Notes under the pieces: generated by a model
Seen by the model: only the letters and a program-made list of their open reading frames with translations
Told to the model about the DNA's origin: nothing
Databases searched by the model: none
Source: a virus
IMG/VR virus record: IMGVR_UViG_3300027747_000967
Location: 55,999 to 119,998 of that record
Strand: one strand, 5' to 3'
DNA: 64,000 bases
Made by a program: the position numbers and the translations under genes
Part shown: positions 1 to 46,603 of the stretch, one piece after another
Numbering within the stretch: position 1 is the stretch's first letter
Layout: every line of letters begins with the position of its first letter

Positions 1-900
1 ATGTTTTTCAACAGCAGATAATTTATACTTACGATAAGCATCAGTTCTCAATAAATCATGTGCTTGTGAAACAGCATCATCATCATTTTTAGCAGTAATT
101 AAAGCCATACTTGCCCATTTATTTGTTTTTGGGTCGTCAAAGTGTGCAGCGTGTGTAATATTTGCTTCATCCAACTCAACATCTTCTTTAGACATTCTAT
201 CCATAACTCTGTGCAACCCATTTTCACGATTATTAGCTTTCCTTGATAAAGTATTTTGATATTGTTTTTCTCTATCCTTATCATCAAGCGGAGGTCTTTT
301 AGAGAAATCATTAATCATACCTAAATCTTGCATTGATTTTGCAGCATAAGAAGCTTGAGTTTTTTTGGAAATCTCATCAATCTGTTCAACTTCTTCTTTA
401 TTCAAATTGGATTTAATTTTATCCATCATCGCTTTCATTTGTTCGCCATGAGGTTTATCTTTAATACTATCCATAAACTTTTTATGCTCTTGGCTTCTTT
501 CATATGCAGCCTTTGCAAATTTTTCTTTGGCTGTTTTTCTTGCTTCTTGTATTCTAGTTTTAGTAGATTTAACAGGAGCAGTTTTAATTTCAGTATGTGC
601 GGACGTTCTGGATTTTAAATTTTTTAATCTTTCGGGTGTAGCATTGTCATCAACGGATTCTATTTGATGACTTTGTTGCCAGGATCTATACGCTGGAGAT
701 TTAGAAATAGATATCTTAGTGTCTCTTGCAACAAACTTAGGATTCATACCTTTTGATTTAAGGTATGCATCTAAACCTGCACTTTCTTCCAATTCATTTT
801 CTGCAATATTTGCTTTTGCTGACCATGGATCCATAGGGTTTACTCCAAAAGTAGGCCTTGACGGCTGAGGATTAATCTTAACTGTTTCTTTCTTTTTCAT
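1..900 (-). CDS. Modular basic virion-protein candidate, C-terminus cut by window edge
   Basis: The frame is open from an ATG at 900 to the window edge, giving 300 codons with no stop, so the gene continues beyond position 1. Its ATG overlaps the stop of the 900-2510 gene. The protein is rich in Lys, Asp and Glu. Near residue 40 it has NELEESAG, a fit to the T4 gp21 prohead-protease consensus (I/L-x-E then a small residue). Further in lies a module running from IDEISKKTQASYA through GLHRVMDR to VELDEA, which is also present in the 900-2510 protein. After VELDEA comes a new segment that is still open at the edge. I do not recognise an enzyme domain. The late-gene context and cleavage-like sites suggest a head-packaged protein, which is inference. 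Confidence 0.75.
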   Translation of the reverse strand, partial: MKKKETVKINPQPSRPTFGVNPMDPWSAKANIAENELEESAGLDAYLKSKGMNPKFVARDTKISISKSPAYRSWQQSHQIESVDDNATPERLKNLKSRTSAHTEIKTAPVKSTKTRIQEARKTAKEKFAKAAYERSQEHKKFMDSIKDKPHGEQMKAMMDKIKSNLNKEEVEQIDEISKKTQASYAAKSMQDLGMINDFSKRPPLDDKDREKQYQNTLSRKANNRENGLHRVMDRMSKEDVELDEANITHAAHFDDPKTNKWASMALITAKNDDDAVSQAHDLLRTDAYRKYKLSAVEKH

Positions 901-2510
901 TACATAGTATCTTTTTTAATCTTCTTAAAAGATTTTTTTGCTAAGTCTTTTGCACGACTCATTGGTGTATGTGTTGCACCAGACTTATCTTTTACATTAA
1001 CAGCTACTTTTTTCCATGGAGTTTCTTCTCTCCATTTACCAGTATCTTCCTCTTTAGCTTGAACAACTTTGGAAGCAAATGTATCAATTTCTTTATTACG
1101 TTGTTTTACTTCTTTAGAACGAATATGTTTTAATTCTGGTTTAACTTCTTCGTTTTTAACTTGCTTGTCTTTAGAAAAATAAGTATGTGGAGGAGTTGTT
1201 AATTTATCATCTAACTTAATATCTACAGGACCAGGGTTTGTTGAAACTTTTTGTTTTTCTTTTGTATCTACACCTTGGTCAACTACTTCAGGTTTAACTT
1301 CTCTTTCGCTTGTTTTTAAATCTACCTTATAACTTCTAAAAGAATTTAATTTAGCAAACTTGCCATCTCTGACACGACCACGGAGCATATCTACTGTCAA
1401 TAAATCTGCATCAGGATCTTTTTCTATACCAACTGCTTCATCCATTTCAACTTCTTCTTTCATCTTACCTGAACCAAAGTATTGACGACCTTTCATTAAA
1501 TCTTTAACGGTCTTTTTACGGTCAACAACATCAGCCATCTTTTTTGTTGGTGTAGTCTTTTTGTATGTAGCATCACCTTCTTCTAAATCTACTTCTTCTT
1601 TAGCCAATCTATCCATAACTCTGTGTAAACCTTTTTGACGGTTATAGGATGCTCTTGTTAAATTGTCAATAGTTTTTTCTTTTTCGTGGTCGGGATGTAT
1701 CGTGCCGTACATTTTTTGTTGTTGTAAAGCGCTTCTTACATGAGTAGTTTTGGCTAAATCTTGCATTGAGTTGCGAGCATAAGAAGCTTGAGTTTTTTTA
1801 GAAATCTCATCAATCTGTTCAACTTCTTCTTTTTCATTTAATACAAATTCATATGAACCATTCCATGTATCAGAAGAATCTTCTTTCATCGCTTGCTTTG
1901 TAGCAGTAGCATACATGACATTCTTATAGTTTTTACCATAACGCTGTTTGAAACCTGCCAAGCCTTTTTTCATTGACATAACAATCTTCTCACGCTTCTT
2001 CATTTGAGCGTCAGTCATTTCTTCACCCATATTATTATCTGTAAATACTGGTTCAGTACCTGTCGCTTTGTTTTCTTTAATATGTGTCAATAACTTATTT
2101 GCAAAAGAATCTTCACCAATTTTCTTTAATTCTTTTTTAGTTGGTGCTTTGATACCTTTTAAATCTTTTTTACTTGGACCTTTTTCAAAAGGATTTTTAT
2201 GTTGCACTTCATGTGCCTTTTTTGAACCATATCCAGAACCACCAAGAACTTTAGTACCTGTTGCAGTAGGAAGTTTTAATGAAGCTTCACTTGCGATTTC
2301 AATTGATTCTTTGTGAGATTTAGCAGTAACAGGATATTTTTTACCTTGAAACTCGAAGTGTGATTGATTTGCTCTCTTAGCGGCATGAGCAGCCTTATGA
2401 AAACCAGTTTCATCTAATTCTGGTTCAAGTAACATTCTCTTTTTTTCTTCTTCTAATACTTGATTAACTGCATCAATCATAGACTGGCTTATTTTATCTT
2501 TTGCAAACAT
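900..2510 (-). CDS. Modular lysine-rich protein with prohead-protease-like sites
   Basis: This is a 536-residue, highly charged protein. It is built from short segments separated by acidic linkers of the type KEEVE followed by I/L/M-x-E: IDE/I at 235, LEE/G at 311 and MDE/A at 358. Residues 236-311 form a module shared with the 1-900 protein (ISKKTQASYA...GLHRVMDR). Residues about 161-210 (EEMTDAQMKKREKIV...RYGKNYKNVMYATATKQAM) match a segment I recall in many marine T4-like phage proteins. There is no catalytic motif or membrane segment. It sits in a tight late operon with the flanking genes. A polyprotein cut inside the prohead, like T4 internal proteins, is the working idea; a structural scaffold or linker protein is the alternative. 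Confidence 0.75.
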   Translation of the reverse strand: MFAKDKISQSMIDAVNQVLEEEKKRMLLEPELDETGFHKAAHAAKRANQSHFEFQGKKYPVTAKSHKESIEIASEASLKLPTATGTKVLGGSGYGSKKAHEVQHKNPFEKGPSKKDLKGIKAPTKKELKKIGEDSFANKLLTHIKENKATGTEPVFTDNNMGEEMTDAQMKKREKIVMSMKKGLAGFKQRYGKNYKNVMYATATKQAMKEDSSDTWNGSYEFVLNEKEEVEQIDEISKKTQASYARNSMQDLAKTTHVRSALQQQKMYGTIHPDHEKEKTIDNLTRASYNRQKGLHRVMDRLAKEEVDLEEGDATYKKTTPTKKMADVVDRKKTVKDLMKGRQYFGSGKMKEEVEMDEAVGIEKDPDADLLTVDMLRGRVRDGKFAKLNSFRSYKVDLKTSEREVKPEVVDQGVDTKEKQKVSTNPGPVDIKLDDKLTTPPHTYFSKDKQVKNEEVKPELKHIRSKEVKQRNKEIDTFASKVVQAKEEDTGKWREETPWKKVAVNVKDKSGATHTPMSRAKDLAKKSFKKIKKDTM

Positions 2511-2524
2511 TTTATTCTCCTATT

Positions 2525-3535
2525 TTATCTGCATTTCCACTTGCGTAATGCGAGTGCTTTTCTTGTTGGTTCACCATTTGGTTTCTTCATTGCACCAGGC
2601 ATACCACCCATCCTAGCACAAAATGACTTTCTACGCTTAGCTGCTTTACTTCCTGGTTTTACTTTACCTGTAACTGCTTTCTTTAATGTAGAACCTGGAT
2701 TTTCTCTACGATATGATGCAATACCTTTTGCATTTAGTCCGCCTGTAGGATTCTTACCTTCTTTTCTACGCCAAGCGGCAGTCTCGTATAATTCTTCGTC
2801 TGAAACATCTTCAAGGTTTTCCCAAAGAATTTCAGGATCAATATTACTTTCTTCTGCAATACCGTTAACAACTTCTTCTAAAATGTCAAACAATTCTTCA
2901 ACATCATATTCTTCAACTTCTTCATCAATATCTTCAGCCGTCCATTTATAATAACTGTGTTTATTTAAATGAGCAAGGGCTTCTTTATGTTTGCCAGCAG
3001 CTACTAGATTTCCCACAGCTCTAGCATGGCTCACAGGAACATTATCACCTCCATGACCCCGTGGAAATATATTAGCTGGATGAAGTGCAGAGCGTTCACC
3101 ATGCACTTCATGATATAGTTTACCATTGTTTTTACCGACATTAAAGTGATAATGGTTTTTTGATTGGTCCTGCGCATGAAAAGATGCCAGTCTTGTTTCA
3201 ACCAATTTTTCAACTTCTTCTTTCATTTGCACAACAGAATGTAATTTATCTTGTTTACCATCTTTACGTTCTAATCTATTACCTTGAGCGTGTTTCTTTG
3301 CAGCATCTAAATTTCTATGAGTGAAATCCATATAATGCGTTACTTCATTGGTATCAGGATCGTGATAAGTTGCACGAAATTTATATGGATAGTGTTTTGC
3401 TTCTTCTAATTCAACTTCTTCTTCTTTTACACAAGAACCTTTTGAAAATGCTTTTTTACCAGGAACAGGTTTGTATCCTGACCAGCATCTACCTTTTTCT
3501 TCTAAGTATTCTTTAAATTCTTTAAATGTTCTCAT
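2525..3535 (-). CDS. DUF6321-like Cys-rich modular protein with CTS-like N-terminus
   Basis: A 336-residue protein whose N-terminus, MRTFKEFKEYLEE, resembles the short capsid-targeting leader of T4 internal proteins. It is followed by a Cys-containing patch (CWSGYKPVPGKK...KGSC, residues 18-35). Likely gp21-type sites are LEE/A at 45, LVE/T at 113 and LYE/T at 251. Each precedes a new basic segment. The C-terminal segment from 252 (AAWRRKEGKNPTGG...RRKSFCARM...LRKWKC) is the widespread phage domain I know as DUF6321, of unknown function. A very acidic stretch at 201-250 sits between segments. Its start overlaps the stop of the upstream gene by a few bases. The function is unknown; packaging in the head is inferred. 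Confidence 0.75.
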   Translation of the reverse strand: MRTFKEFKEYLEEKGRCWSGYKPVPGKKAFSKGSCVKEEEVELEEAKHYPYKFRATYHDPDTNEVTHYMDFTHRNLDAAKKHAQGNRLERKDGKQDKLHSVVQMKEEVEKLVETRLASFHAQDQSKNHYHFNVGKNNGKLYHEVHGERSALHPANIFPRGHGGDNVPVSHARAVGNLVAAGKHKEALAHLNKHSYYKWTAEDIDEEVEEYDVEELFDILEEVVNGIAEESNIDPEILWENLEDVSDEELYETAAWRRKEGKNPTGGLNAKGIASYRRENPGSTLKKAVTGKVKPGSKAAKRRKSFCARMGGMPGAMKKPNGEPTRKALALRKWKCR

Positions 3536-5376
3536 TTTTTTCCTTTAATCCAATCGTCAGGTATCTTACCATGTTTCTTTTTAAAATCGTTATGTAAATC
3601 TTTGCCGGTAATTCCATGTTTAACAGCAATTTTTTTCATTAAACTATCAATTGAATCATAACTATGACTATCTAACTTCTGTAAACCTTTTTCTAATTCT
3701 ACTACACAGTCCTCATTAAATTTCTTCTTACCTTTTTTCTTAATGATGACACCAACATTTCTATTTAAATCTTTATAGGTATCCATACCTTCTTTGTTGC
3801 TAGCACCACCTAAAACACCACCTAAACCAGATTCAACATCATTTTGAAAACCATTATATTCTTTAAATGTTCTCAACTTCTTCTTTTTAGGTACATCATA
3901 ATCACTACTTAAAGGATTTACAGAACCACCACCTGGCATTGCGTTACTAGCAGGACTTGCATTACTATATTCTACTGTCTCTCCCATGCCACCTAATCCA
4001 GCACCACCAGTTAATCCCGAACCATTAGTTCTCGTATTCCATTCTCCACCTAAACCAGTTGGTCTTACAGATTTAGGTTCTTTACCTGAAGTATCGCCAC
4101 CTTTTAATCTTTTCTTTTTATCATTATCATAATTAAAATTGGGTTCTTTAGGTAAAGGCAATGCTCTTAAAATAGGTTTACTTTCTGTCAATACACCCCT
4201 ATTCCTTTTCAACCATCCTTCTGCTACATCGGTAAATCTGTTGGAATCTAAAAAGAGGTTTGTATTTTCATATACTGTATGAATATCCTCTTCCTTGGTA
4301 TCTAGGTTTCCTGTGTTGTCAAAGCCTATAAATGTCTCAAAAATTTCATAAAAACTATTAATATTTTTTTGCGATTTATTCCATTTGTGATATCGAGCAG
4401 ATTCATTCATCATTTTAGACAATGATTCATTTCTTTGTTTACTAATTTCATTGGTTGTTCCAACAAAAATCATCATGGTTTCGTAACCAAGTTCTTCAAG
4501 TTCTTCTTTAATATAAGAAACTTTTTCATAATCGTCCGCAGGTCCATTAATGATTAGTGGGCTTCTTCTGCGAATTGACTCTCTACGATAATCGTTGGTT
4601 TTTTCGGATAGTTTTTGTTTATCACCAAGAAAATCAATAGCTTGCGTAAAATTAATTTCAGTCATTTTACTCTCAGCAATGGCTTCACGGATAATAATGT
4701 CTTTACCTGAACCTGGACCACCAGTTAGAAAGATTGCCTTGAATGAACCACGATATATTTGTTCATTTAATCCCATGCCTTTACGGACATCATGCATCAA
4801 TTCTTTTGTGTGTTCGTCAGAAACATGAGATGGAACACCTTCACGAAAGCCAGCGAAATTATTATTTTTTGCGTGTTCTCTCATTTTTGTAGCAGACATA
4901 CCTTCTGCACCTTCAGCGTCAGGGTCACGATGACCAGCAGACACAACACTTATCTTTTTGAACTTATAAAAACCGTGTTTACCTTTTACGTCATTGTATT
5001 TGTCCAATGTTGTTTGGAATTCTTTAACACGGTCAGAACCAGCAACTACGATTAGATGGTCATGTCCTTTATTATAAAGTCTGGTAGCATGATGAAAAAT
5101 AGAAGGTTCTTCGGAACTAGAAGATTCAAAATTTGTACCAGGAGAATATCTTCTTAAATGTTTAATTTTTTGTTTGGCAGACAAAGGATTCTTTTTTGTA
5201 TCTTGTGAATGTGATACAATAATATGATGTGGTGCATGATTTTTTTCTGCAACTTCTCTTATTTTATGAATTAACTTTAAATGACCAGTAGTAGGAGGAT
5301 TCATACGACCAAACGCCATCACCACAGGATTATGTGTTTTTTCTATTTCTTCATATAATTCTAAAAATGATTTCAT
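3532..5376 (-). CDS. Cytidylyltransferase-like domain fused to P-loop kinase-like domain
   Basis: A 614-residue fusion. Residues about 16-200 are a nucleotidyltransferase of the HxGH superfamily, with FGRMNPPTTGHLKL near residue 22 and the closing motif MSATKMREHA near 160. Residues about 213-360 form a P-loop domain with Walker A GGPGSGKD, resembling a small-molecule or nucleic-acid kinase. The last 200 residues are Gly-rich and low complexity with no recognised fold. The N-terminus MKSFLELYEE resembles a capsid-targeting leader with an LYE/E site. The domain pair suggests NAD, CDP-sugar or nucleotide metabolism, but the substrate cannot be read from sequence. Cytidylyltransferase-like genes of this type are common in marine T4-like phages. 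Confidence 0.8.
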   Translation of the reverse strand: MKSFLELYEEIEKTHNPVVMAFGRMNPPTTGHLKLIHKIREVAEKNHAPHHIIVSHSQDTKKNPLSAKQKIKHLRRYSPGTNFESSSSEEPSIFHHATRLYNKGHDHLIVVAGSDRVKEFQTTLDKYNDVKGKHGFYKFKKISVVSAGHRDPDAEGAEGMSATKMREHAKNNNFAGFREGVPSHVSDEHTKELMHDVRKGMGLNEQIYRGSFKAIFLTGGPGSGKDIIIREAIAESKMTEINFTQAIDFLGDKQKLSEKTNDYRRESIRRRSPLIINGPADDYEKVSYIKEELEELGYETMMIFVGTTNEISKQRNESLSKMMNESARYHKWNKSQKNINSFYEIFETFIGFDNTGNLDTKEEDIHTVYENTNLFLDSNRFTDVAEGWLKRNRGVLTESKPILRALPLPKEPNFNYDNDKKKRLKGGDTSGKEPKSVRPTGLGGEWNTRTNGSGLTGGAGLGGMGETVEYSNASPASNAMPGGGSVNPLSSDYDVPKKKKLRTFKEYNGFQNDVESGLGGVLGGASNKEGMDTYKDLNRNVGVIIKKKGKKKFNEDCVVELEKGLQKLDSHSYDSIDSLMKKIAVKHGITGKDLHNDFKKKHGKIPDDWIKGKK

Positions 5377-6380
5377 TCGTCTATCGTTTTCTTAAAATTG
5401 ATACCTTTATGGCCTAATGTTTTGGCCATTGCTTGTAAGTGTTCATCTTCATCTAAATCAACATGACTTTTTTCCAAATGTTTTACTTTAAACATCACCA
5501 TTCTTTTCATAGGATCGCCAGTTTTTTGATAAACTCTGAATTGTCCTTTACCTTTTGCTTCAGGTAATCCGTGGCCAGTTGCATCTTTTTTTCCTACTTT
5601 ATAAGTACCGTGTTTACCAACTTGCAAAACATGGACATGATGGTCTTTTAAATATCCGTTTGCTGGGTCCAAATTTTCATGTTCAAATAAAACATCTTTA
5701 GCTCTTTTGACATTTTCATTGGGCATATGATGTTTATTCATATGTTCTAAGATACCTTTTGCTTCAATATGTTTTGCATAAGTAGGCCTATTCGCCTTAT
5801 TCTTTTCGGGCATATGCCAACCGCCTTTGTTTTTATCATAGGCAATCGTCAATTGACCAAATGCGGCTGTTTTACCAATTTTTGTTTCACCTTGTAACAC
5901 TTTTTTATCTCCAACTTCTCTTTCACTATGAACTCTACCTTTATGTTTCTGTCCGGTTTTTTTATTAATTAAATTAAAATCATTACCAGCAGAAAAACCA
6001 GCGGCTTCTCCGTGCATCAAACCATGTTTTTTTAATCTTTCAACAAATTGTTTTTCATAATCAAAACCTTTATTAGCTTTTTGTTCACCAGGTTTAACAA
6101 TTTTATTTGCAGGTATTAAAGTTTTCTTTTTTGTAACATTATCGGTAGCATGAACAAATAATTTACCGTCATATCTTTCTGCTTTATGTAATATTAAATC
6201 AGCGCCTGCAGGAACATCTTTATGACCTACGCCTAGTTTATGAGTAGGCGTTTTACTATTCAAATGAGGTGTAACATATTGTTTTTCGTGTCTTTCTGTG
6301 TCAAATCCAGTTGCAGCAATATATCCTCTCGATTCAAGAATTAAATCTTCATAGAGAATATATTCTTTAAAATTAAACAT
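5373..6380 (-). CDS. Unknown basic protein, possible PD-(D/E)XK nuclease
   Basis: A 335-residue Lys/His-rich protein that I do not recognise by name. Residues about 125-190 read FDYEKQFVERLKKHGL, then SAGNDFNL, then GETKIGKTAAFGQL. The spacing of E, D and ExK resembles a PD-(D/E)XK nuclease core; this is a suggestion from motif order only. The N-terminus MFNFKEYILYEDLILESRG carries two gp21-type sites (LYE/D, ILE/S), and another possible one lies near the C-terminus (LDE/D). Start and stop abut the neighbouring genes. Late expression with the rest of the set is likely from the promoter at 7602. Confidence 0.7.
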   Translation of the reverse strand: MFNFKEYILYEDLILESRGYIAATGFDTERHEKQYVTPHLNSKTPTHKLGVGHKDVPAGADLILHKAERYDGKLFVHATDNVTKKKTLIPANKIVKPGEQKANKGFDYEKQFVERLKKHGLMHGEAAGFSAGNDFNLINKKTGQKHKGRVHSEREVGDKKVLQGETKIGKTAAFGQLTIAYDKNKGGWHMPEKNKANRPTYAKHIEAKGILEHMNKHHMPNENVKRAKDVLFEHENLDPANGYLKDHHVHVLQVGKHGTYKVGKKDATGHGLPEAKGKGQFRVYQKTGDPMKRMVMFKVKHLEKSHVDLDEDEHLQAMAKTLGHKGINFKKTIDE

Positions 6381-6383
6381 TTA

Positions 6384-7559
6384 CTATCTCACCTTTAATA
6401 AATTTGCACGAGCAAATTCGGCTCGGTTGACTAATTTTGTAGGCTCGCCTGCATGATTGACTACAAAACCTTCTGGTTTACTTCTTTTACCTGCAATATG
6501 GTGGTCTAATCCACCTTCATGTTGTTCTAAATTTTTAACTAAAATATTTTTAGCTTGTTGTAAGTGGTGATGCATATTTAATAAATTTTCATAATGGTCT
6601 TTATTTTTTTCTATATGGTCAGTATGCATTTTTGCTTCTTGTTTTTTTCTTGATTGAGCCGCAGGCGTTTTTAATTTAGCAATAGCTTTATTATATTTTT
6701 CTTGTATATGGTTTGATAAACCTTCAGCGGAAGGTTTTTCACCTGTTCTTACTGTTTGATTTATATAGGTTCCTAGTTGACCAGATTCACCACGATGTGG
6801 TTCGGTTGCCTTATACATTTCACCTTTATGTTCATCATGTATTGCTTTTGCGGCATTCATATGATTATTAAATTCTTCTTGGTCTTTTTCTGAGTAGTGT
6901 ATCTGACTAGTATCGTGTTCTGCGGATTTAGTCCAAACATCCGGATGTTGTTTGAAGTTATGTAAATCTGGATGAGGATCAGCAGACATACTATCAATTG
7001 TTTTTCCGTGATATTGTTGGTGAATAACAACACCCATTTTTGCTTTACGAACTTTATCTGCTTCTTCGCCTTTTGCGGTATAACGAATTGTGTTAGGAGT
7101 AAAAGAGACACCCCCATCCGATTCTTCTTTATCACCTTCTGAAAACATCATATCGCCTTGATATACACCAGACTTGGGTGACATCTTTTTAAGATGTTTA
7201 AGTGCTGAATGTAATTTTTCTACAAGGCCAGGAGCGTGTCCGTGATTTTTAACAATATCTGCGTGAGTATAGTTGATTTTAGGATTTTTATTGAAAGCAG
7301 ATTTCGAAGCAACAAAAAATTTACCTGTTTCTGGATGATGACCAAATACAATAGATGGAGAACCATCATACTTCATAGTTAAAGCGGTACTTTTACTTCC
7401 AGATTTAATGTGTTCGTGTGTTTGACTTAAAGCGTTATATGTATGTGTAAAACCTTTTGAGCCATATAATAAAGGTCTATCTTCAGCATGGTCTATATGC
7501 TTAAGTTTTTGACCTTCTTCTTCGGCCTCTTCTTTTATGAATACTAAAAATGGTTTCAT
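6384..7559 (-). CDS. DUF6267-like protein with DNA/RNA-ligase-type motifs
   Basis: A 391-residue protein and the first gene behind the late promoter at 7602-7609. It begins MKPFLVFIKEEAEEEGQKLKHIDHAED. It carries KYDGSPSI (residues about 63-70), matching nucleotidyltransferase motif I (KxDG) of ATP-dependent ligases and capping enzymes. VYQGDMMF could be motif III, and PEGFVVNHAGEPTKLV near the C-terminus fits motifs IV and V. I recall the family as DUF6267 in cyanophages and relatives. It may be a ligase-like enzyme that acts on nucleic acid or another acceptor; the acceptor is unknown. The leader resembles a capsid-targeting sequence with an IKE/E site. Confidence 0.75.
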   Translation of the reverse strand: MKPFLVFIKEEAEEEGQKLKHIDHAEDRPLLYGSKGFTHTYNALSQTHEHIKSGSKSTALTMKYDGSPSIVFGHHPETGKFFVASKSAFNKNPKINYTHADIVKNHGHAPGLVEKLHSALKHLKKMSPKSGVYQGDMMFSEGDKEESDGGVSFTPNTIRYTAKGEEADKVRKAKMGVVIHQQYHGKTIDSMSADPHPDLHNFKQHPDVWTKSAEHDTSQIHYSEKDQEEFNNHMNAAKAIHDEHKGEMYKATEPHRGESGQLGTYINQTVRTGEKPSAEGLSNHIQEKYNKAIAKLKTPAAQSRKKQEAKMHTDHIEKNKDHYENLLNMHHHLQQAKNILVKNLEQHEGGLDHHIAGKRSKPEGFVVNHAGEPTKLVNRAEFARANLLKVR

Positions 7560-7601
7560 TAATTACCTCATGGATTGCAACACACTTTGGTTGCCATGAT
7601 G

Positions 7602-7609
7602 TATTTATA
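7602..7609 (-). promoter_or_regulatory. T4-type late promoter (TATAAATA)
   Basis: The exact T4 late promoter octamer TATAAATA reads toward the 6384-7559 gene, 43 bases ahead of its ATG. It is the only recognisable promoter for the six overlapping or abutting genes down to position 1. T4 late promoters are used by gp55-programmed RNA polymerase, and gp55 is encoded in this window. Confidence 0.75.
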
Positions 7610-7691: not shown

Positions 7692-8525
7692 TTATACCAG
7701 TAATTCAATCATCTTTGACATAGGATATTGAGGTTCATATCCTAATTTTTTGATTTTTTTGATGTCTAGTATCATATCTTTTGCTTGAACAATACTATGA
7801 AATCTAGGTGTTGGTATACTATTAAAAGATGAAGAAGAATTTGTCATTTCCTTAACCTTCAACATTACGTCCATCAAACGAATACCTTCACCGTTCGCTA
7901 GGTTGTAGATTTCATTCTTTTTTCCAGAATTTAGAATAAGGTTGATACCAGACACGACATCATCTACATAAATGTAATCTCTATACACTTCACCACCCTC
8001 ATATAGATTGATGGGATTACCTTGTTTAACTTCATTAATCATATATTGTAAAGCATTCTTCTTAGCAGACGCCTTGCCATCTGATTTACCTACCACATTA
8101 CCTAAACGAATAATACGATAAGGTATTTCAAATGTTTTACAATAAGAAATGAGTAATTGTTCAGCTGCTCGTTTGGTAATTGAATAGAACCCTCTAGGGT
8201 CACAACCATAGGTTTCTTTAGCAGGTAGTTTAACGTCACCATAGACAAACCAAGAACTAATAAAGTTAAATGTAATATCTTTACCTTTACAAGACTCTAG
8301 TACTTTAATTAAAGTCGTAAGATTGGTTTCAATGTCAAGATAAGGGTTAGTGTGAACATTATAATTATCAATAGTAGATATAAAGTATAAAACATCCGTA
8401 ACTCCTTCCTTTGCTTTCACTTCATAGTCATTTCTTTCATTAACCCAAAGATATCCATCTGTCAATTCTACATAACGAGAACCTATAAAACCTTTACCTC
8501 CAAAAACATTGATTAATCGTTCCAT
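7692..8525 (-). CDS. NAD-dependent sugar epimerase/dehydratase (SDR family)
   Basis: A 277-residue extended short-chain dehydrogenase. The nucleotide-binding motif GGKGFIG is at residues 9-15 and the catalytic YSITK is near residue 133, with the downstream RDYIYVDDVVSG signature of sugar-nucleotide epimerases and reductases. It overlaps the 3' side of the RfbH-like gene by a few bases. That pairing suggests it reduces or epimerises the product of the 3-dehydrase step of a deoxysugar pathway, as in CDP-3,6-dideoxyhexose synthesis. The exact substrate is not readable; a UDP-sugar epimerase role is possible. Confidence 0.88.
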   Translation of the reverse strand: MERLINVFGGKGFIGSRYVELTDGYLWVNERNDYEVKAKEGVTDVLYFISTIDNYNVHTNPYLDIETNLTTLIKVLESCKGKDITFNFISSWFVYGDVKLPAKETYGCDPRGFYSITKRAAEQLLISYCKTFEIPYRIIRLGNVVGKSDGKASAKKNALQYMINEVKQGNPINLYEGGEVYRDYIYVDDVVSGINLILNSGKKNEIYNLANGEGIRLMDVMLKVKEMTNSSSSFNSIPTPRFHSIVQAKDMILDIKKIKKLGYEPQYPMSKMIELLV

Positions 8526-9796
8526 TTTTTACAAACCTTTTCAATGTAAGCCAAAATCTTTTCATTATAAAGAGGTGAACAACCAATAAAGAATACATTA
8601 CTGAGAGCAAGATTTGAATTAGGATACTTTTTATAGTCATCTAGATGTTTGTATCCTGGATGTAATAAAATGTTACCACTAAAATAATTTCTTGTCTGAA
8701 TCTTGTTTTCTTCAAAGTGAGCAACTAACATTTCTTTTGCTTCTTGTGATTCACAATAGATAGGAACACCAAACCACGAAGTTTCGGCAACAGAAGATTC
8801 GTTAATGACACGAGCCTCTTTGATGTTATTCTCAATAAACTTTTGTATTCTTTCTTTATACTCACGGCGCTTAGAGTGAATAAAATCAAATTTCTTTAAT
8901 TGTTCAATACCAATTGCACCTTGTAAATCTAATGGTTTTAAATTATAACCCATTGTCGTAAACAGATACTTGTGGTCAATCACACCGTCATAGTTTGGTA
9001 ACCAGTTATCAAATCTTTTACCACAACTACCACATTGTAATAGATTGTTTGCACCAACACAATAACAATCACGACCCCACCAGGAAATGCTTCTTGCTAA
9101 CTTAATATATTCTTCATCATTAGAACTGACCATTCCACCTTCACCGGTTGAGATATGATGTGCAGGATAGAATGAAGTAGACCAGCAATAATAGTATTCT
9201 GTTATTAATTCATTCTTGTATTTTGTACCAAGACTATCACAATTATCACCAATCAATAAAATATTGTTACGATAACAAATGTCATGTAATACATCCATAT
9301 CAGGAGGATTACCAAGAACAGGAGATACAAAAATTGCTCTAGTCTTTGATGTAATCTTTTCTTCGATTCTTGTAACATCAAAATTTAGTGTTTTTAACTC
9401 AATATCAATGAAAACAGGTTTCAAACCATTCTGTGAGATTGGTGCAATCGTTGTGGGGAATCCAACAGGAGATACAATAATCTCATCTTCAGGTTCCCAT
9501 TTAAATTTATTCTTTAGTGCCGTAATCATTACAAGGTTCGCTGATGAACCTGAGTTTACCATGTGTGAGTATTTGACATTAAACTTATCACAAAACTCTT
9601 GTTGAAATTGAGACACTTTTTCACCAGAAACAATCCATTTACCATTGACTAATGTATCAATTGCAGCATACATTTCTTTTTCGTCCCACAGTTGGCCTGA
9701 ATACTGAACGAATTGTCCTTCTTCGTAATTGTCATAATTCTTTGCGTAAGCTGGACGCTCTCTCGATAATGCTTCAATCATTTGATGTATAATCAT
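8513..9796 (-). CDS. rfbH: RfbH-like 3-dehydrase of the DegT/AHBA aminotransferase fold
   Basis: A 427-residue member of the DegT/DnrJ/EryC1 family. In ordinary family members a Lys binds PLP. Here that position reads YPAHHISTGEGG (residues 210-221), with His instead of Lys, the hallmark of PMP-dependent CDP-4-keto-6-deoxyglucose 3-dehydrases (RfbH, also called E1). GDNCD at 183-187 supplies the Asp that contacts the pyridine ring. A Cys cluster (CYC at 244-246, CGSC at 255-258) matches the [2Fe-2S] region of that enzyme. An AGAGG ribosome site precedes the ATG, one base past the stop of the upstream gene. It probably removes the C3 hydroxyl of a nucleotide sugar during 3,6-dideoxyhexose synthesis. 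Confidence 0.9.
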   Translation of the reverse strand: MIIHQMIEALSRERPAYAKNYDNYEEGQFVQYSGQLWDEKEMYAAIDTLVNGKWIVSGEKVSQFQQEFCDKFNVKYSHMVNSGSSANLVMITALKNKFKWEPEDEIIVSPVGFPTTIAPISQNGLKPVFIDIELKTLNFDVTRIEEKITSKTRAIFVSPVLGNPPDMDVLHDICYRNNILLIGDNCDSLGTKYKNELITEYYYCWSTSFYPAHHISTGEGGMVSSNDEEYIKLARSISWWGRDCYCVGANNLLQCGSCGKRFDNWLPNYDGVIDHKYLFTTMGYNLKPLDLQGAIGIEQLKKFDFIHSKRREYKERIQKFIENNIKEARVINESSVAETSWFGVPIYCESQEAKEMLVAHFEENKIQTRNYFSGNILLHPGYKHLDDYKKYPNSNLALSNVFFIGCSPLYNEKILAYIEKVCKKWND

Positions 9797-9797
9797 A

Positions 9798-10508
9798 TTA
9801 TGCCTCTGTATTAAATGTAATTACTTCTTTTATGTCACTACGATATGTATTTGGTGGATAATACCATCTATTTGTTTCACCTGGATGCATATCATAAGCC
9901 TTTGGATTTCCGCTACCGTGCCAACATTCTAAATCATAACGATGGTGCGGTTGACCAGAAAACTGTGGTTGATAATTATTTTCTGGTGGTGGAATTAATT
10001 TTTTACATCTTCTCAAATAAGATGCTTTGGCCCAATAGAAGTTACCAGCATAAAAAGGATGTGGAGGTTCACCTAAAAATGCAGCACCACAAGTATCATA
10101 ACCTTCATCTAATTTAGCTACACATTCTTGCCATTTTTCAATGTTCCAATACTGCATATACTTACGCCAGTTTTGATGGCCGCCATCAGGATGAGAAACA
10201 CCTTTATGTGTCATATGACATACATAAAATTCTTCATCGGAAGAATGTACCATGTTTTGGATGTATTGTGATGTTGTTGCTTCGTACCATTCTTTATATG
10301 ATTCATCAAAGTCATGATAAAAAACATTCGTTCTATTTTCCCAACGTTGTTCTAACCAACGGAAGTTTTCTTCACCAAAATGCAACATCATATGAACTTC
10401 ATCAGCGGCATCAAGTAAACCAGTTTTTTCTAGTAACTCGGTTTGTTCTAAGGTGATTTCTCTACCTCTCATCATGTGCATTGCATGACTAAAAACTTTT
10501 ATTTTCAT
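9798..10508 (-). CDS. Putative glycosyltransferase of the sugar island
   Basis: A 236-residue protein with no named motif I can assign firmly. HPFYAGNFYWAKASYLRRC resembles the GNFWWA-type signature of a group of bacterial and viral glycosyltransferase-like proteins. It is rich in Trp, His and Tyr. The ATG at 10508 is preceded by AAGGA and is preferred over the in-frame TTG at 10514. It sits inside an uninterrupted sugar operon between a methyltransferase and the RfbH-like gene. The glycosyltransferase assignment rests on the motif and context. Confidence 0.65.
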   Translation of the reverse strand: MKIKVFSHAMHMMRGREITLEQTELLEKTGLLDAADEVHMMLHFGEENFRWLEQRWENRTNVFYHDFDESYKEWYEATTSQYIQNMVHSSDEEFYVCHMTHKGVSHPDGGHQNWRKYMQYWNIEKWQECVAKLDEGYDTCGAAFLGEPPHPFYAGNFYWAKASYLRRCKKLIPPPENNYQPQFSGQPHHRYDLECWHGSGNPKAYDMHPGETNRWYYPPNTYRSDIKEVITFNTEA

Positions 10509-10510
10509 TA

Positions 10511-11161
10511 TCAATTCCTTTTTGCTATAATGGTCAATATATTTGGTAAGTATGAAACAGATTTACGAATCTCATCTTCGTGATTACAAATATGAATTGG
10601 AGTAAATCCTGCTTTATGAACTAATGTAATTAAACCATGTGAATCAAAATGATGGAAATGTTCATTTTCTTTACGGTGTTTCCATGTTCTAAACCATTCA
10701 GCACCCATACGCTCGTGCATCCACGGTAATGATATCATAATATATTTTGTTTTAATTGAACCAAGTAGTTCATGTATATTAGGTTCAGGAATATGTTCAA
10801 TTGAATCAAAGAATGTAGTTACATCAACATCGATATCTTTGATATCTTTGATAAAAGTAATGCCTTCTGGTAACGGATAATCAGAGATATCATGACCATA
10901 CAATTTTATATCAGGTAAAAATTCTTCATTTTGTTTTTTTACACATTTCAAGAAATTGCCATCGCCATAACCAAAATCACAAATACTATTAAACTCACCT
11001 AAAGGTAAATAACTATCCAATAAATTAAATCTCAACTTTGACATTTCATCGGACATTTTTGTATAATACTCCATATAACGAGTATCATACTTCATAATTT
11101 CACCGGTAGGTTTACTTTGAAACCAATGACCTGGTTCTATCATTTCATAATTATCAATCAT
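10511..11161 (-). CDS. Class I SAM-dependent methyltransferase
   Basis: A 216-residue Rossmann-fold methyltransferase. Motif I is CDFGYGDGNF near residue 65, followed by an acidic loop (HDIS) and VTTFFDSIEHI as the motif IV/V region. The ATG at 11161, with GGAG upstream, is used rather than the in-frame TTG at 11179. Its neighbours are glycosyltransferases, so methylation of a sugar or a glycan end is the likely role. Methylation of another small molecule cannot be excluded. Confidence 0.78.
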   Translation of the reverse strand: MIDNYEMIEPGHWFQSKPTGEIMKYDTRYMEYYTKMSDEMSKLRFNLLDSYLPLGEFNSICDFGYGDGNFLKCVKKQNEEFLPDIKLYGHDISDYPLPEGITFIKDIKDIDVDVTTFFDSIEHIPEPNIHELLGSIKTKYIMISLPWMHERMGAEWFRTWKHRKENEHFHHFDSHGLITLVHKAGFTPIHICNHEDEIRKSVSYLPNILTIIAKRN

Positions 11162-15747: not shown

Positions 15748-16338
15748 TTAATATTTCCATAAAAATTGATAACCAGCATGACAAGGTTGTTTATTGACTT
15801 TTAACATATAGTCAGTAACAAATCTTCCTTTACCAGATACTTGATTATTTTCAAACCAACAATCATCAACACCAATTAAAGCACCATCTTTTAAAGAAGG
15901 TAATATTGTTGTTAACTCATAGAGATGATGTAAAGCACTTTGATAAACAACTTCAGGATGTTCTCTAGGAGCATCAAAACTATCTAGATAAAGAAAATCA
16001 ATCTTCTTACCTTTTTCTAATAATTTAAGATTTAATTCTTTAAGAAAAGTAATACTGTCTTTTTGAACAACAGAAGAAAAATTACTTGTTAATTTACTTC
16101 TACAATAATTAACACTTTCTTCAGATATATCTACTGTGATAAAATTACCACCGTATTCATCTATATATTTGTCAAATAATAGACTACTTTGACCATCACC
16201 GGTATAATTATCTTCTTGTCTTGCACAACCTGTTTCAACAATAAAGGGCTCTTCAATTGATTGTAGATAATTAAAGATGTAATCAAATCCACCAATTCGT
16301 TCACCTAATCTATGTCTTACTTCATTATAAAATTGCAT
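15748..16338 (-). CDS. Class I methyltransferase of sugar/cephalosporin-hydroxylase type
   Basis: A 196-residue protein with FIVETGCARQEDNYTGDGQSS as the SAM-binding region, then GGNFITVDISEESV and DFLYLDSFDAP. This order is typical of Methyltransf_24-like enzymes found beside glycosyltransferases. Its stop abuts the start of the GT2 gene. The expected job is O-methylation of a sugar; not proven. Confidence 0.7.
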   Translation of the reverse strand: MQFYNEVRHRLGERIGGFDYIFNYLQSIEEPFIVETGCARQEDNYTGDGQSSLLFDKYIDEYGGNFITVDISEESVNYCRSKLTSNFSSVVQKDSITFLKELNLKLLEKGKKIDFLYLDSFDAPREHPEVVYQSALHHLYELTTILPSLKDGALIGVDDCWFENNQVSGKGRFVTDYMLKVNKQPCHAGYQFLWKY

Positions 16339-42010: not shown

Positions 42011-43348
42011 TTACATTAAGTTACGAACACCAAAAATACGGTAGTAAACGTTAGTACGAGCAGTCAACTGACCTAAATTGGAAGTACCTAAGCCTTGTGC
42101 GAATGGATTTGCAACCATGCCGTAACGAGTCTTGAAACCAATTTTTGGTTGGAAAGTGAACTGGTCTACTGCACGAACCATTTGTAATGGAACGTATGGG
42201 CAATAGAACAAACCAGCATCGTATGGTGAAGAACCTTTGTAACCAATTGTTACTAACTCTTGGTTAGAAGTATAACCACCAAAATATGGGTCAATGTAAA
42301 CCTTGATACGACCATGTAACATACCAGCAAATGTATTACCTGTATCATCTACTTGCAAGTCAGTTTGTAAAGCAGGAGTATAAGATAATACACCAGCCAT
42401 TGCCATAGCAGAAGCAACGTCAGAAGAAACGATAAGAACATTACCTTTACCTCTACGAGTCTGTTTAGCAATAACGTTTGCATCACGTTCAATTTGGAAA
42501 ATCAAACCTTTGAAACGCTCAACTGACCAACGACCGTTTGAGTCTGTATCTAAGTCAAAATAACCAGAAGTTGTTGTACCATACTGAGCACCAGCAACAG
42601 CACAAGTATAGATTGTACGAATAACTTCACGGTTAATTTCAGCAAGAATTTCTGTAGAAAGAATGTTTGACAATTCTGTTTCAGCGTCAAGACCATGAAT
42701 TGCTTTTAAGTCTTGTGCTAATTCTAAAGAATACTCTGCCTTTAAAGCACGGGACTGAGCAGTTACAGTAACTTTTTCAATTGAGAATGCCATCTGTGGG
42801 AAAGCATTAGCACCTGAAGTATCTGTAGAACCTAACTGTTCAGCAGCTGAGGTTGTCATGCCGATACCAGAAGTGGTAGCACCTGAAGTAACGTTAGCAA
42901 AGTTATTTGCTGTATCTGTTGTAGTTGTACCTTGGAAACCGTATGGGTTACCAGCAGAACCAACACCAGAGAACATTGTGTTTGCTTCGTTGTAGAAAGC
43001 TTCAGTACCTGTTTGTGTAGCATAACGAGCACGCATTGCGAAAATTAATCCTGTAGGACCTGTCATTGGTTGAACACCAGCAACGTCATAAGCGATTAAG
43101 TTAGGTAATGCACGGCGAACTAAAGAAATCAAGATTGGGTCAAAGTTAGAAATGTTAGCGCCAGTTACGTTTGTTGGAACAACTGTGTTAACTTCGTTCA
43201 ATGACTGACGGTCTTGAGACATAGCTTGCTGTTGATTTTCCAAAACAAGTGCAGTAACTGCTTTCTTGTATGGGTCTTTGATGGACTCTAGTTCTGGATG
43301 ATCCAGAACTGGCTGCCATTTTTGTTGTAGTTCTTCTGTTAAATACAT
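42011..43348 (-). CDS. 23: gp23 major capsid protein
   Basis: A 445-residue HK97-fold capsid protein with typical T4-like regions (ISNFDPILISLVRRALPNLIAYD, QPMTGPTGLIFAMRARY). SLNE/V (residues 49-53) fits the prohead-protease site I/L-x-E. It also ends with a typical YYRIFGVRNLM. Shorter than T4 gp23 (521), as in marine T4-like phages. Confidence 0.97.
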   Translation of the reverse strand: MYLTEELQQKWQPVLDHPELESIKDPYKKAVTALVLENQQQAMSQDRQSLNEVNTVVPTNVTGANISNFDPILISLVRRALPNLIAYDVAGVQPMTGPTGLIFAMRARYATQTGTEAFYNEANTMFSGVGSAGNPYGFQGTTTTDTANNFANVTSGATTSGIGMTTSAAEQLGSTDTSGANAFPQMAFSIEKVTVTAQSRALKAEYSLELAQDLKAIHGLDAETELSNILSTEILAEINREVIRTIYTCAVAGAQYGTTTSGYFDLDTDSNGRWSVERFKGLIFQIERDANVIAKQTRRGKGNVLIVSSDVASAMAMAGVLSYTPALQTDLQVDDTGNTFAGMLHGRIKVYIDPYFGGYTSNQELVTIGYKGSSPYDAGLFYCPYVPLQMVRAVDQFTFQPKIGFKTRYGMVANPFAQGLGTSNLGQLTARTNVYYRIFGVRNLM

Positions 43349-43390: not shown

Positions 43391-44686
43391 TTATTTTACC
43401 AAAGTTTTAGAAATTGCTTGTGAATATGCTTCCATTAAATTATCAGAAGATTTATATTTTACTTTTTCTTCTTCAATTTCAACTTCATCATCCAGTGCAG
43501 AATTATCAGCAGATTTTACGTTAGAAGAAAAATAAGATTCTCTTATTACTTCCAACTTTTCTACAAATTCTTCTTCAGTAGTAAATTCTACGTTCTCTGC
43601 GAGCGATTTTAATTTTTCTACTTGGGTTTGCGACAGGCCTTCACACGCTGTGTAGATAGCCTCAATTTTTTTCTGTTCGTTTAATTCTTTAGATAATTGG
43701 ATACCACGATGAATTTGTTCATTTAATGCATCCTCAAGTTCTTCAACTTTAGCACTTAAACCTTCAACGACATCAACCTTATCTTCAGGAATGTCAATAT
43801 AGTGTTCAACAAATAAATCACGCAGACCATTAATAAAATCTTCAGTTACTTCAGAACGCAAACCAGATTCAACTGCTAATTGGTTTTCTTGCATCCATTC
43901 TTCTACCATATAGTTAAGATAGTCATCAACTTTAGATGCTAATTCTTCTTTAATTTGCTCTACGGCAATTTCAAATTCTTCTACTAATTCTTGTTCTGCT
44001 TCGGCAATAACTTCTTCTGCACGAGCAATAACAGCTGCTTCGAAAATTGTAGTGGCTTTATTAACAAATTCTTCAGAAAGATTTTCGCCAGATAAAAGAG
44101 CATCAATATCTTCTTTCATTTTTTCTTTCATCTTATCTTGCATCATTTTCTTTTTTTCCATTTTCATTCCTTCTTCAGAAATTGTTTCTTCGTCATCAAA
44201 TTCAGTTTCTTCACTTTGACCACCATAAGATTGAAAATTAGCATTTGCATTTTTTTGCCATGTGTTTGTTGGTAATTTGTGAACTGCACGGTCACGAATT
44301 TTTTCATAAGGGGTTTCTACATTTTGATATGAACCCATCTCGCCTGGTTTATCAACGTCACCTGCTTTTTCTTGACCTGGTTGACGTGGCAATGTTTTCA
44401 TTGGTTCACAACCTACAGGAGGTGTTGCACCTGGAGGAGTTGCTGTTTTAGTACCTTTGAAATAATCTGGTAACGGATCGTTAACATCATTTGGTGAATC
44501 GCCAATTTTACCAGCATCGTTTGTACCATATGCAGTTTTAGAATCTATACGACTAACACCAACTTTATCGGGATTAGTTAATTCACGTTGACCTTTTTTT
44601 GAAGCGATATTACTATCAAAGGTTTCTTTTGAACCTTCGCTTAAAATTTCTTTGGCAGCGTCAGATAAATTAAATTTTGATGACAT
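43391..44686 (-). CDS. 22: gp22 prohead scaffold core
   Basis: A 431-residue acidic protein. The N-terminal third is low complexity; residues about 170-400 form long Glu-rich helices and coiled coil (EEFEIAVEQIKEELASKVDDYL). Position between gp21 and gp23 and composition fit gp22, which is cut to peptides by gp21. A late promoter lies ahead. It is longer than T4 gp22 (269). Confidence 0.9.
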   Translation of the reverse strand: MSSKFNLSDAAKEILSEGSKETFDSNIASKKGQRELTNPDKVGVSRIDSKTAYGTNDAGKIGDSPNDVNDPLPDYFKGTKTATPPGATPPVGCEPMKTLPRQPGQEKAGDVDKPGEMGSYQNVETPYEKIRDRAVHKLPTNTWQKNANANFQSYGGQSEETEFDDEETISEEGMKMEKKKMMQDKMKEKMKEDIDALLSGENLSEEFVNKATTIFEAAVIARAEEVIAEAEQELVEEFEIAVEQIKEELASKVDDYLNYMVEEWMQENQLAVESGLRSEVTEDFINGLRDLFVEHYIDIPEDKVDVVEGLSAKVEELEDALNEQIHRGIQLSKELNEQKKIEAIYTACEGLSQTQVEKLKSLAENVEFTTEEEFVEKLEVIRESYFSSNVKSADNSALDDEVEIEEEKVKYKSSDNLMEAYSQAISKTLVK

Positions 44687-44733: not shown

Positions 44734-45381
44734 TTATAACCGTTTGATGAAGTTTTCAAAAATGCGTAAACTTACCGCTTCAATATCTTTTCTGGAAGCT
44801 TGTTTAATTTCTTTTTTAGCTTCTTCAACATATTGTTCAGTCCATACGCCATTGACTAACATCCACTCTTTGCCTTCCATAATGCCTTGAACAAATGCTC
44901 CAGGCGCAGAAGGGTCTGCTACAATATCTGCCGCTGTGGCTAGATAAAAATCGTTCTGAACAACATTAACACCGTTAATGTTTTTCAATGAACCCATGCC
45001 TCTTGATGATACGCCTAACTGAGCACCGCCTTCAATTAATTGTTTTGCGATTGTTCCCATTGGTGTATCTAAAATTTTTGCTTTACCAATCCATTGATTA
45101 CCATCTTCACTTAAAGATACAATCATATGAGACACACGGTCAAGATTGATAGTAGGAGTTTCAGGATGACCTAATTCTCCAAAAGCACGATTTTTGTTTA
45201 TATATTCTTCTGAATAACGAGCAACTTCTTTTTTCATAGTGTCGTATTCGTACAAACGACCATTTTTATTCTTTTTTTCGGAAACTAAAAAAGGACCTTC
45301 AATGAATAAAGATTTTTTGCCACTAGATTCCTCAATCATTTCATAATGAACTGTTTCTTGGATTTCTTTAATAAGTTTCAT
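44734..45381 (-). CDS. 21: gp21 prohead protease
   Basis: A 215-residue protease (T4 gp21 is 212). The start MKLIKEIQETV follows GGAA; the longer frame overlaps the upstream gene. FGELGHPETPTIN has the catalytic His and GVSSRGMGSL the catalytic Ser of the herpes/T4 prohead-protease fold. It would cut gp22, gp23 and internal proteins at I/L-x-E sites. Confidence 0.95.
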   Translation of the reverse strand: MKLIKEIQETVHYEMIEESSGKKSLFIEGPFLVSEKKNKNGRLYEYDTMKKEVARYSEEYINKNRAFGELGHPETPTINLDRVSHMIVSLSEDGNQWIGKAKILDTPMGTIAKQLIEGGAQLGVSSRGMGSLKNINGVNVVQNDFYLATAADIVADPSAPGAFVQGIMEGKEWMLVNGVWTEQYVEEAKKEIKQASRKDIEAVSLRIFENFIKRL

Positions 45382-45394
45382 TATTGTTCCGTTA

Positions 45395-45934
45395 TTATGG
45401 TTTGCCTGAATATAGGCCGTAATTAAATGCGGCAGGGTCATTAAACTGACCACGTTGGTAGTATGCGTTATCTTTACGGAGAGAAATCATAATTGTGTAT
45501 GCTGTATTTGCAGTCGCACCGTAAGTAATAATACCTATATTACCATTTGATTTTGGTGAGTTGTTTAGAATAGCAGGATTTTGTTGACTACCAAATTCGC
45601 CATTACCATTTAGATAGAAAATGGTAGCATTGTTTGCGGCAACATCGCCAGCCCAAAAAACTTCAACGGCACCAGGAGGATTTCCAGTTCCCATGTTTAC
45701 GAAATATTGACAAGCAGTTAATTGAATGTTGTAATATGGTAAAGTAGTATTTGCTATGAAACCTGCTGTGTTTACTACAGGGAAACCATTGGTTGCCAAA
45801 GCACCATATAAAGAATTTGCAACGATGCGAACATTGTTTGATTCTTGGCCGGAACCATCAAACTGGCCTGTTATCTTAATAACCGCATCGGTTGTTGTAT
45901 CTCTCAATACTTGATATGTAAATTTATTTGGCAT
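45395..45934 (-). CDS. Putative virion protein next to gp21
   Basis: A 179-residue beta-rich protein, starting MPNKFTYQVLRDTTTDAVIK, with no recognised fold. Similar sequences occur in the head operon of marine T4-like phages as I remember. A decoration or accessory capsid role is inferred from position between gp68-like and gp21. Confidence 0.65.
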   Translation of the reverse strand: MPNKFTYQVLRDTTTDAVIKITGQFDGSGQESNNVRIVANSLYGALATNGFPVVNTAGFIANTTLPYYNIQLTACQYFVNMGTGNPPGAVEVFWAGDVAANNATIFYLNGNGEFGSQQNPAILNNSPKSNGNIGIITYGATANTAYTIMISLRKDNAYYQRGQFNDPAAFNYGLYSGKP

Positions 45935-45937: not shown

Positions 45938-46168
45938 TTATCCTAAATTGTTTTCTTCTGTTACGCCTAATATTTCATCCATATTATATGGAATGGTAAC
46001 ATATTTATCTATTGCACTAATATAATATAAAGCAATCGTTTTGTTACCTGGATACTGTCTCATTGACTGTCTTTTCATCACTAATACTGCCGGTAAAGAT
46101 GAAGTTTTGGAATTTTTTTTACCTTTAGCCTCATCTAATTGCTGACGAAAATTGGAAAATAATTTCAT
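45938..46168 (-). CDS. 68: gp68-like prohead core protein
   Basis: A 76-residue protein with FRQQLDEAKGKK near the start: LDE/A is a clean gp21 site and the first 13 residues, MKLFSNFRQQLDE, look like the capsid-targeting leader of T4 internal proteins. Position between gp67-like and gp21 fits gp68. Confidence 0.65.
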   Translation of the reverse strand: MKLFSNFRQQLDEAKGKKNSKTSSLPAVLVMKRQSMRQYPGNKTIALYYISAIDKYVTIPYNMDEILGVTEENNLG

Positions 46169-46180: not shown

Positions 46181-46573
46181 TTACTTCATTTTACTAAATG
46201 ATTTAGAGAGATTACCTAAGGTTTCTTTAGCGGACGGCATTTTTAAATCTTTTGAATGTTTCTCAGACTTTTTTTTCATCTTCATTTTTAATAATTCTTT
46301 GCCCTCTTTACTATCTGGATGTGGATAACTATCCATCTCGTCCAATTCTTCAACTTCTTCTTCCATTGTAACTTCTTCTTGTTCTTCTTCGCCATCAAAT
46401 TCTTCTTCTTCATTATCATTCAGACCAAGTAAATTTTCAGCAACTTCTTGTTTCTTTGCTTCAATTGCTGCTGCAACTTTGTCATGAATTGATGCGTATA
46501 ATGCTTTGCGGAATTCTACGCCTTCGTCATCATATGCGTAATCAATAATTTGTTTTGTTGAATAATCTGCCAT
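46181..46573 (-). CDS. 67: gp67-like prohead core protein
   Basis: A 130-residue protein with a strongly acidic centre (EEEEFDGEEEQEEVTMEEEVEELDEMD) and a basic C-terminus. Length is larger than T4 gp67 (80). The ATG 46573 follows GGAG. It sits after gp20, as gp67 does in T4. Sites such as LDE/M suit processing by gp21. Confidence 0.7.
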   Translation of the reverse strand: MADYSTKQIIDYAYDDEGVEFRKALYASIHDKVAAAIEAKKQEVAENLLGLNDNEEEEFDGEEEQEEVTMEEEVEELDEMDSYPHPDSKEGKELLKMKMKKKSEKHSKDLKMPSAKETLGNLSKSFSKMK

Positions 46574-46603
46574 TTTTTTCTCCAATTAAGGTGTGTTATA
46601 TGA

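Follow-up and report, generated by a model that had tools for sequence, protein, structure and literature searches.

We analyzed a 64,000-base stretch of DNA (hereafter the window; bases 55,999-119,998 within the 119,998-base virus record IMGVR_UViG_3300027747_000967) and found that an operon of six minus-strand genes, which runs from 7559 to the window edge and continues with further genes beyond it, very probably encodes cargo of the phage head. Four of the six genes start with a capsid-targeting leader of the T4 type, in which aromatic residues at positions 4 and 7 (Leu at position 7 in one gene) are followed by L/I-x-E. The tag on the enzymes of this operon, together with tagged enzymes in the particles of related cyanophages, suggests that the virus probably brings a set of ready-made enzymes along when its DNA enters the cell. 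The source is a marine T4-like phage of bacteria, and the nearest named relatives of its nucleotidyltransferase are those of pelagiphage HTVC008M and Methylophilales phage Melnitz. The contig has a GC content of ~33%, and 157 open reading frames (ORFs) were counted across it.

The T4-type leader in the operon and in related viral loci

The first gene of the operon begins with MKPFLVFIKE (7530..7559; this and the following leaders are on the minus strand), which has the exact T4 register of F4, F7, I8 and E10, as in ipIII. The second leader, MFNFKEYILYEDLILE (6333..6380), has F4 and Y7 with displaced LxE/IxE sites; homologues of this protein begin with MKSFRAYIVE, MISFKSFLLE and MIKFKSFLKE. The third, MKSFLELYEE (5347..5376), has a cut site that reads LYE and escapes the loose pattern given below, and its relatives read MKSFLELVEE, which is the exact register. 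The fourth, MRTFKEFKEYLEE (3497..3535), resembles T4 ipI (MKTFKEF) and has a displaced cut site; its MRTFKEF...LEE is close to the T4 protein. Another leader, MKTFKTLRSELFES, lies farther down the same operon, outside the window (contig 54021-54509). A preliminary description of this DNA had quoted leaders for these four genes and for a gene at the gp68 position of the head operon, and all of them are real at the positions given there. It had counted five leaders in six genes by including NELEES, which we rejected. NELEES is found some 35 residues into the protein encoded at 1-900, whose start is of another kind; this leaves four leaders in six genes.

The pattern M..[FY]..[FYL] with [ILM]xE within a few residues was found in five of the 157 contig ORFs (Fisher p 3e-4). 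These are three operon genes, the gene at contig 54021-54509 and the gp68-position gene, consistent with the earlier remark that the latter has a leader of the same form. When the cut site was left out of the pattern, four of the six operon genes matched, versus 5/151 other ORFs (Fisher p 7e-5). In the structural model of the first operon protein, residues 1-19 have a pLDDT (predicted local distance difference test) below 50 and the confident fold begins after residue 19, so the leader is predicted to be unstructured. Leader-like stretches also occur elsewhere than at the start of proteins: LRTFKEYNGF near residue 500 of the protein encoded at 3532-5376, and RTFKEFLEYIE at the C-terminus of S-SCSM1_93. 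They may be remnants of fused genes or tags placed at the C-terminus.

Mutagenesis of T4 IPIII, one of the T4 internal proteins (IPs), placed targeting in residues 4 and 7 and cutting in residues 8 and 10, and ten residues of the T4 leader are enough for a foreign protein to enter heads and then cells (review PMC9026906). Because the T4 leader has been mapped by mutation, we examined these positions in an independent sample, 80 viral loci that encode the ligase-like protein, the product of the first operon gene; the sample comprises 79 N-termini of this protein and 853 ORFs. The strict register, M..[FYW]..[FYWLIM][ILVMF].E, was found in 64 of the 79 homologues, one of them through an alternative start. 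Unselected position entropies were 1.25, 1.53, 1.37 and 1.09 bits at positions 4, 7, 8 and 10, respectively, and 2.5-3.2 bits at the other leader positions. Among all ORFs of these loci, 125 of 853 showed the strict register, whereas shuffled N-termini gave a mean of 0.5 and a maximum of 3. In a register-shift control, 124 ORFs had the motif core starting at residue 4, and no other starting residue accounted for more than eight. The matching ORFs gather at or beside the ligase-like gene; of the ORFs that lie four to eight positions upstream, 151 in number, not one matched. Since homologues are not independent samples, the spread of the leader over unrelated proteins weighs more.

The viral collection was also searched with a DNA pattern (16 fixed bases) that represents the leader and nothing else; this gave at least 120 stretches, almost all at gene starts. 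Among the matches listed, 79 ORFs beginning at the pattern were read, and nearly all have a stop codon shortly upstream, which indicates that they start where real genes start. After removal of the leader, these ORFs fell into at least 34 homology clusters, including cytidylyltransferase-like proteins, DUF6267, DUF6321, DUF5661, DUF5662, a double-psi beta-barrel protein, a zeta-toxin-like kinase fused to a 5'-nucleotidase and many unknowns. A control pattern, in which the first Phe was shifted by one residue, returned 10 stretches in the entire collection, most of them within longer frames. The same enzyme has homologues that carry the leader and homologues that lack it, and several loci encode a fusion in which the ligase-like protein comes first, bearing the leader at its start, and the nucleotidyltransferase follows. 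As judged from these sequences, the leader is a tag mounted on many proteins and not a part of one family. The likeness to T4 internal proteins that had been noted at the outset is therefore borne out by conservation at the positions defined by mutagenesis, by many unrelated carriers in a single register and by leader-bearing enzymes in the virions of relatives, and the leader recurs in related phages, where the preliminary description had suggested looking for it. Besides these families, three leader-bearing proteins (L116:3736-4149, L132:1211-1858 and L171:897-1478) resemble small ADP-ribosyltransferases, which, if so, would parallel T4 Alt; for the L171 protein this likeness is a weak match to ART-PolyVal (0.0026).

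Leader-bearing enzymes in virions of related cyanophages

Published virion proteomics of related cyanophages served as an outside test. S-CREM2 has four annotated genes with the strict leader, and the published virion list (PMC10665884, Table 3) includes every one of them. They encode an S-adenosylmethionine hydrolase (MKDFDSFLEE), an APH-like kinase (MKRFDAFLTE), a cytidylyltransferase (MKNFSSFLTE) and the unknown protein gp136 (MQTFSMFFSE). The probability of four out of four by chance is 0.0029 over all 219 genes and 3.5e-4 over non-structural genes. S-CREM2 gp13 begins with MKDLHSFLTE, a near match to the leader. In addition, the Cas9-like protein of the S-CREM2 virion (L006 7704-10313) has a leader-like PLRFASFMAEA after about 15 residues, and the start annotated for it possibly lies too far upstream.

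The nucleotidyltransferase was detected as T4-GC190 in S-SM1 virions (PMC3037559), where it starts with MKKFSAFLNE. In S-SCSM1 it starts with MKSFLQFLKE and is annotated as a virion protein (PMC9602691 and the notes of the record); genes 89-93, 95 and 97, which surround it in a syntenic block, carry the same annotation. In S-SZBM1 (PMC9146016) it was the sole enzyme detected and begins with MRFRQFIIEA, one residue shorter, and the neighbouring DUF6267 protein, which has no leader (MAKNTHLEH), was not detected in virions. The kinase of S-CRM01, which is in virions according to PMC10665884, starts with MISFDQFLSE. As far as the accessible text of the S-CREM2, S-SM1, S-SCSM1 and S-SZBM1 papers goes, none of them names a targeting signal, and carriage was proposed from detection alone. 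A literature search for such a leader or capsid-targeting sequence in cyanophages returned T4 reviews and phage papers, none of which describes it.

Products of the operon, prohead-core genes and neighbouring genes

The first gene (6384..7559, minus strand, as are the other window genes of the operon and the head genes given below) encodes a DUF6267 protein (Pfam 8.4e-100) with the motifs KYDG, PEGFVV and KLV. In an alignment of 24-28 sequences, K63-D65-G66, E363-G364-V366 and K375 are invariant. Its AlphaFold2 (AF2) model has a pLDDT of 87.2, and the VIA matches listed for it consist entirely of RNA and DNA ligases, with the RNA ligases at the top. The best of them is the Naegleria RNA ligase (Z 9.0, root mean square deviation 3.7, 186 residues), followed by the T. 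brucei editing ligase (Z 7.9), T4 Rnl2 (7.7) and T4 Rnl1 (7.1). A sequence search of the PDB with the profile of this protein found no relative. Motifs and predicted fold place it in the covalent nucleotidyltransferase (RNA/DNA ligase) superfamily, as a candidate end-joining enzyme, and agree with the ligase-like protein proposed earlier.

The second gene (5373..6380) encodes a putative PD-(D/E)XK nuclease with an SH3-like N-terminal part. D134, E165-x-K167 and Q176 are invariant in an alignment of just six sequences. Residues 103-324 match HhaI endonuclease with a modest Z of 6.7 in a weak model (mean pLDDT 62.8); a Foldseek search with the whole model gave nothing significant, and tblastn gave no phage match. 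The third gene (3532..5376) encodes a fusion of an NMNAT/cytidylyltransferase-like nucleotidyltransferase (PF01467, 6.4e-9) with a P-loop, zeta-toxin-like kinase (PF06414, 3.5e-4), so that the nucleotidyltransferase-kinase fusion recognized in the preliminary description is recovered by both domains. The nucleotidyltransferase is CTP_transf-like and matches phrog_3041/395 cytidyltransferase and, more weakly, NMNAT profiles; the C-terminal part of the fusion holds the internal LRTFKEY noted above, and a sequence search of the PDB found no relative. The fourth (2525..3535) encodes a basic DUF6321 protein (Pfam 1.8e-22) with two EEVE..E sites (3401-3421 and 3197-3220). Outside the window, the protein of contig 53227-54021 (MKTFKQHLDD...) weakly matches a phage polynucleotide kinase profile (1.1e-5) through its HAD-like DIDDT region. 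All nine operon proteins longer than 150 residues are basic, with isoelectric points of 8.7-9.7 versus a median of 6.0 elsewhere. T4 IPs are likewise basic (PMC9026906).

The remaining two window genes of the operon have no leader. The basic protein of 900..2510 has three EEVE..E sites (EEVEQIDE, EEVDLEE and EEVEMDE) and a different start, KISQSMIDAVNxVL, which is conserved in relatives too. The basic protein of 1..900, of which the N-terminal 300 of 436 residues are in the window (the sequence was completed from the contig), has EEVEQIDE and EDVELDE. Acidic elements that end in a gp21-like site (EEVEQIDE, EEVELEE, EEVEMDE and others) occur 10 times in the contig versus 0.5 expected: six in these two proteins and the DUF6321 protein (0.05 expected), three in gp67 and gp22 and one elsewhere. 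By these sites, the two proteins look like prohead-core proteins that are cut in pieces, as T4 gp67 and gp22 are. In the head operon, two core genes have no PHROG match and are named by position: gp67 (46181..46585, with EEVEELDE) and gp68 (45938..46168, with the leader MKLFSNFRQQLDEA). Other head genes are clear by profile, namely the gp21 prohead protease (44734..45453, phrog_207, 6.7e-77), which is likely the cutter of the leaders, the gp22 scaffold (core) protein with DEVEIEE (43391..44686, phrog_237, 1.6e-85), the gp23 major capsid protein (42011..43348, phrog_138, 2.2e-160), whose N-terminal LNE is likely a gp21 site, and the portal gene.

A T4-type late promoter motif, TATAAATA, stands at 7602..7609 on the minus strand, where the preliminary description had placed a late promoter, about 50 nucleotides before the first ATG of the operon. 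It occurs 11 times in the window versus 11.4 by chance in shuffles; this is no excess, and we do not accept it as strong evidence for a late promoter. The motif is biased in strand (10 of 11 copies on the coding strand) and placed before late genes, with other copies before gp67, gp22 and tail genes.

Several other regions of the window deserve mention. Between gp41 and the operon, 7692-16338 holds a run of sugar-modifying or glycosyl-type genes (epimerase-like, DegT aminotransferase PF01041, HtrL_YibB and others). Beside gp41, upstream of the operon, 16350-17495 encodes a possible homologue of the virion protein S-SCSM1_90, with a common (S/D)PAD(I/V) recognized by eye. A DruA-like protein (PF14236, 4.7e-19) is encoded by the phage itself at 33062-34327 (minus strand); DruA belongs to the Druantia anti-phage system. 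The DNA polymerase gene gp43 (21309-24649, minus strand) is split into ORFs 23144-24649 and 21309-22412, and ORF 22402-23097 between them is HNH-like by eye, with no match in Pfam. The gene of the terminase large subunit (50651-53713, minus strand) also appears to be split. Its N part (53327-53713) has an intein-like segment at the end, 50651-52441 has an intein-C-like segment at the start followed by gp17 domains, and the ORF at 52417-53373 inside is endonuclease-like (DUF559/REase-like). This arrangement is possibly a split or invaded intein; the Pfam intein match is weak (0.0074).

Probable head cargo, its alternatives and known systems

In the mechanism that we propose, the leaders, M-x-x-F-x-x-F/Y-L/I-x-E, would bind the nascent prohead core. 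gp21 would then cleave after E10 or at a nearby displaced L/IxE, and such cutting is very likely in this phage. By analogy with T4, the basic enzymes would remain in the head and exit with the DNA, so that injection into the host is likely. The cargo would consist of the RNA-ligase-fold protein, the putative PD-(D/E)XK nuclease, the NMNAT-like nucleotidyltransferase with its P-loop kinase and the DUF6321 protein; a further item, the HAD phosphatase-like protein, is encoded just beyond the window edge. The products of the two leaderless genes, with their repeated gp21-type sites, would be core proteins comparable to gp67 and gp22.

Some observations weigh against head carriage through the leader. 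The strict register is present in one of the six window genes, and the others are recognized through the relaxed form or through relatives. S-SCSM1 gene 30 (MKTFKQFMSE, 106 residues) bears a leader and has no virion annotation, S-SZBM1 gene 192 (MKTFKQYITEA) was not detected in virions, and S-SCSM1_90 is in virions and has no leader. The S-CREM2 authors also allow for co-purification of abundant proteins (PMC10665884).

A different role for the leader was considered, in which it brings proteins into the prohead core just as factors of assembly or DNA condensation, with no delivery to the host or with action inside the head alone. The basic products, the core-like cleavage repeats in several of them and the fact that T4 IPs are primarily core components (PMC9026906) all speak for it; however, the leader is carried by intact, unrelated enzyme domains (S-adenosylmethionine hydrolase, kinase, ligase-like, nucleotidyltransferase), for which delivery fits better than a structural role, and we regard a purely internal role as unlikely. 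The leader could also be a docking peptide for a late cytoplasmic multi-enzyme complex unrelated to the head, with detection in virions as carry-over. That the genes share one operon and are often fused would agree with this, but the leader matches the positions that T4 needs for head targeting and cutting, the gp68-position gene has the same leader, and the leader genes of S-CREM2 are dispersed in the genome (gp6, gp14, gp136, gp154) and yet linked to virions, which makes docking very improbable. Finally, the low GC content and the single exact match in the window might suggest chance, or K/E-rich, low-complexity N-termini of late proteins in an AT-rich genome; this is refuted by the shuffles and register controls, and we give it practically no weight. 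Head cargo is thus the reading that we prefer.

What the cargo does can be proposed more tentatively. The head might carry a kit for nucleic-acid repair and counter-defence that works before phage transcription, and the T4-type leader might be a general tag for cargo exchange among marine T4-like phages; we consider this broader proposal rather doubtful as it stands. The kit would comprise the RNA-ligase-fold protein, the P-loop kinase domain, the HAD phosphatase with its likeness to part of a phage polynucleotide kinase, the nuclease and the NMNAT-like enzyme. In T4, Pnkp and Rnl1 form a tRNA repair pair, of which the set of ligase, kinase and phosphatase would be reminiscent. If the proposal is true, the kit might reseal tRNAs cleaved by host anticodon nucleases, and the NMNAT-like enzyme could restore nicotinamide adenine dinucleotide (NAD) depleted by host defence.

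The leader principle is already known from T4; that marine phages use it generally to address enzymes to the head was not described in the literature we searched, and such use would broaden a T4 curiosity to a general delivery route for whole enzymes. Virion studies of cyanophages have time and again left unexplained enzymes in particles, with carriage and contamination undistinguished, and a leader that can be read from the sequence indicates which ones are likely carried. The head cargo of an abundant group of ocean viruses thus becomes predictable from genomes alone, and DUF6267, DUF6321, DUF5661 and other uncharacterised families become candidates for injected effectors.

Among known systems, T4 IPI, IPII and IPIII are similar in leader length, in aromatic residues at positions 4 and 7, in L/I at position 8 and in E at position 10; ipII and ipIII start with MKTYQEFIAEA and ipI with MKTFKEF...ITEA in the T4 sequences fetched for comparison. 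In both cases a gp21 homologue is encoded, the proteins are basic, and the genes are separate from the head operon and preceded by a late-type promoter motif. Unlike the small basic proteins of T4, the window cargo consists of large enzyme domains (ligase-like, nuclease-like, nucleotidyltransferase-kinase), several of its genes share one operon, and its leaders have Phe at position 4, where ipII and ipIII have Tyr. T4 Alt, an ADP-ribosyltransferase, is also a head-carried enzyme cut by gp21 near its N-terminus (PMC9026906); however, no sequence relation to it was found, Alt has a 7-residue propeptide, and the enzyme activities differ. Among S-SM1, S-CREM2, S-SCSM1, S-SZBM1 and S-CRM01, the homologous nucleotidyltransferase was detected in the virions of four, and the leaders agree in register or nearly so. 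In S-SM1, S-SCSM1 and S-SZBM1 this enzyme also occupies the matching place in the operon, with gp41 on one side and the primase/nrd genes on the other. The window phage, unlike these cyanomyoviruses, is closer to its pelagiphage and Methylophilales-phage relatives. The giant phages SPN3US and phiKZ likewise have head proteins that are cut by the prohead protease, some of which are ejected, but several of their propeptides are longer than 100 residues, and a short T4-type leader is mostly absent (PMC5694885).

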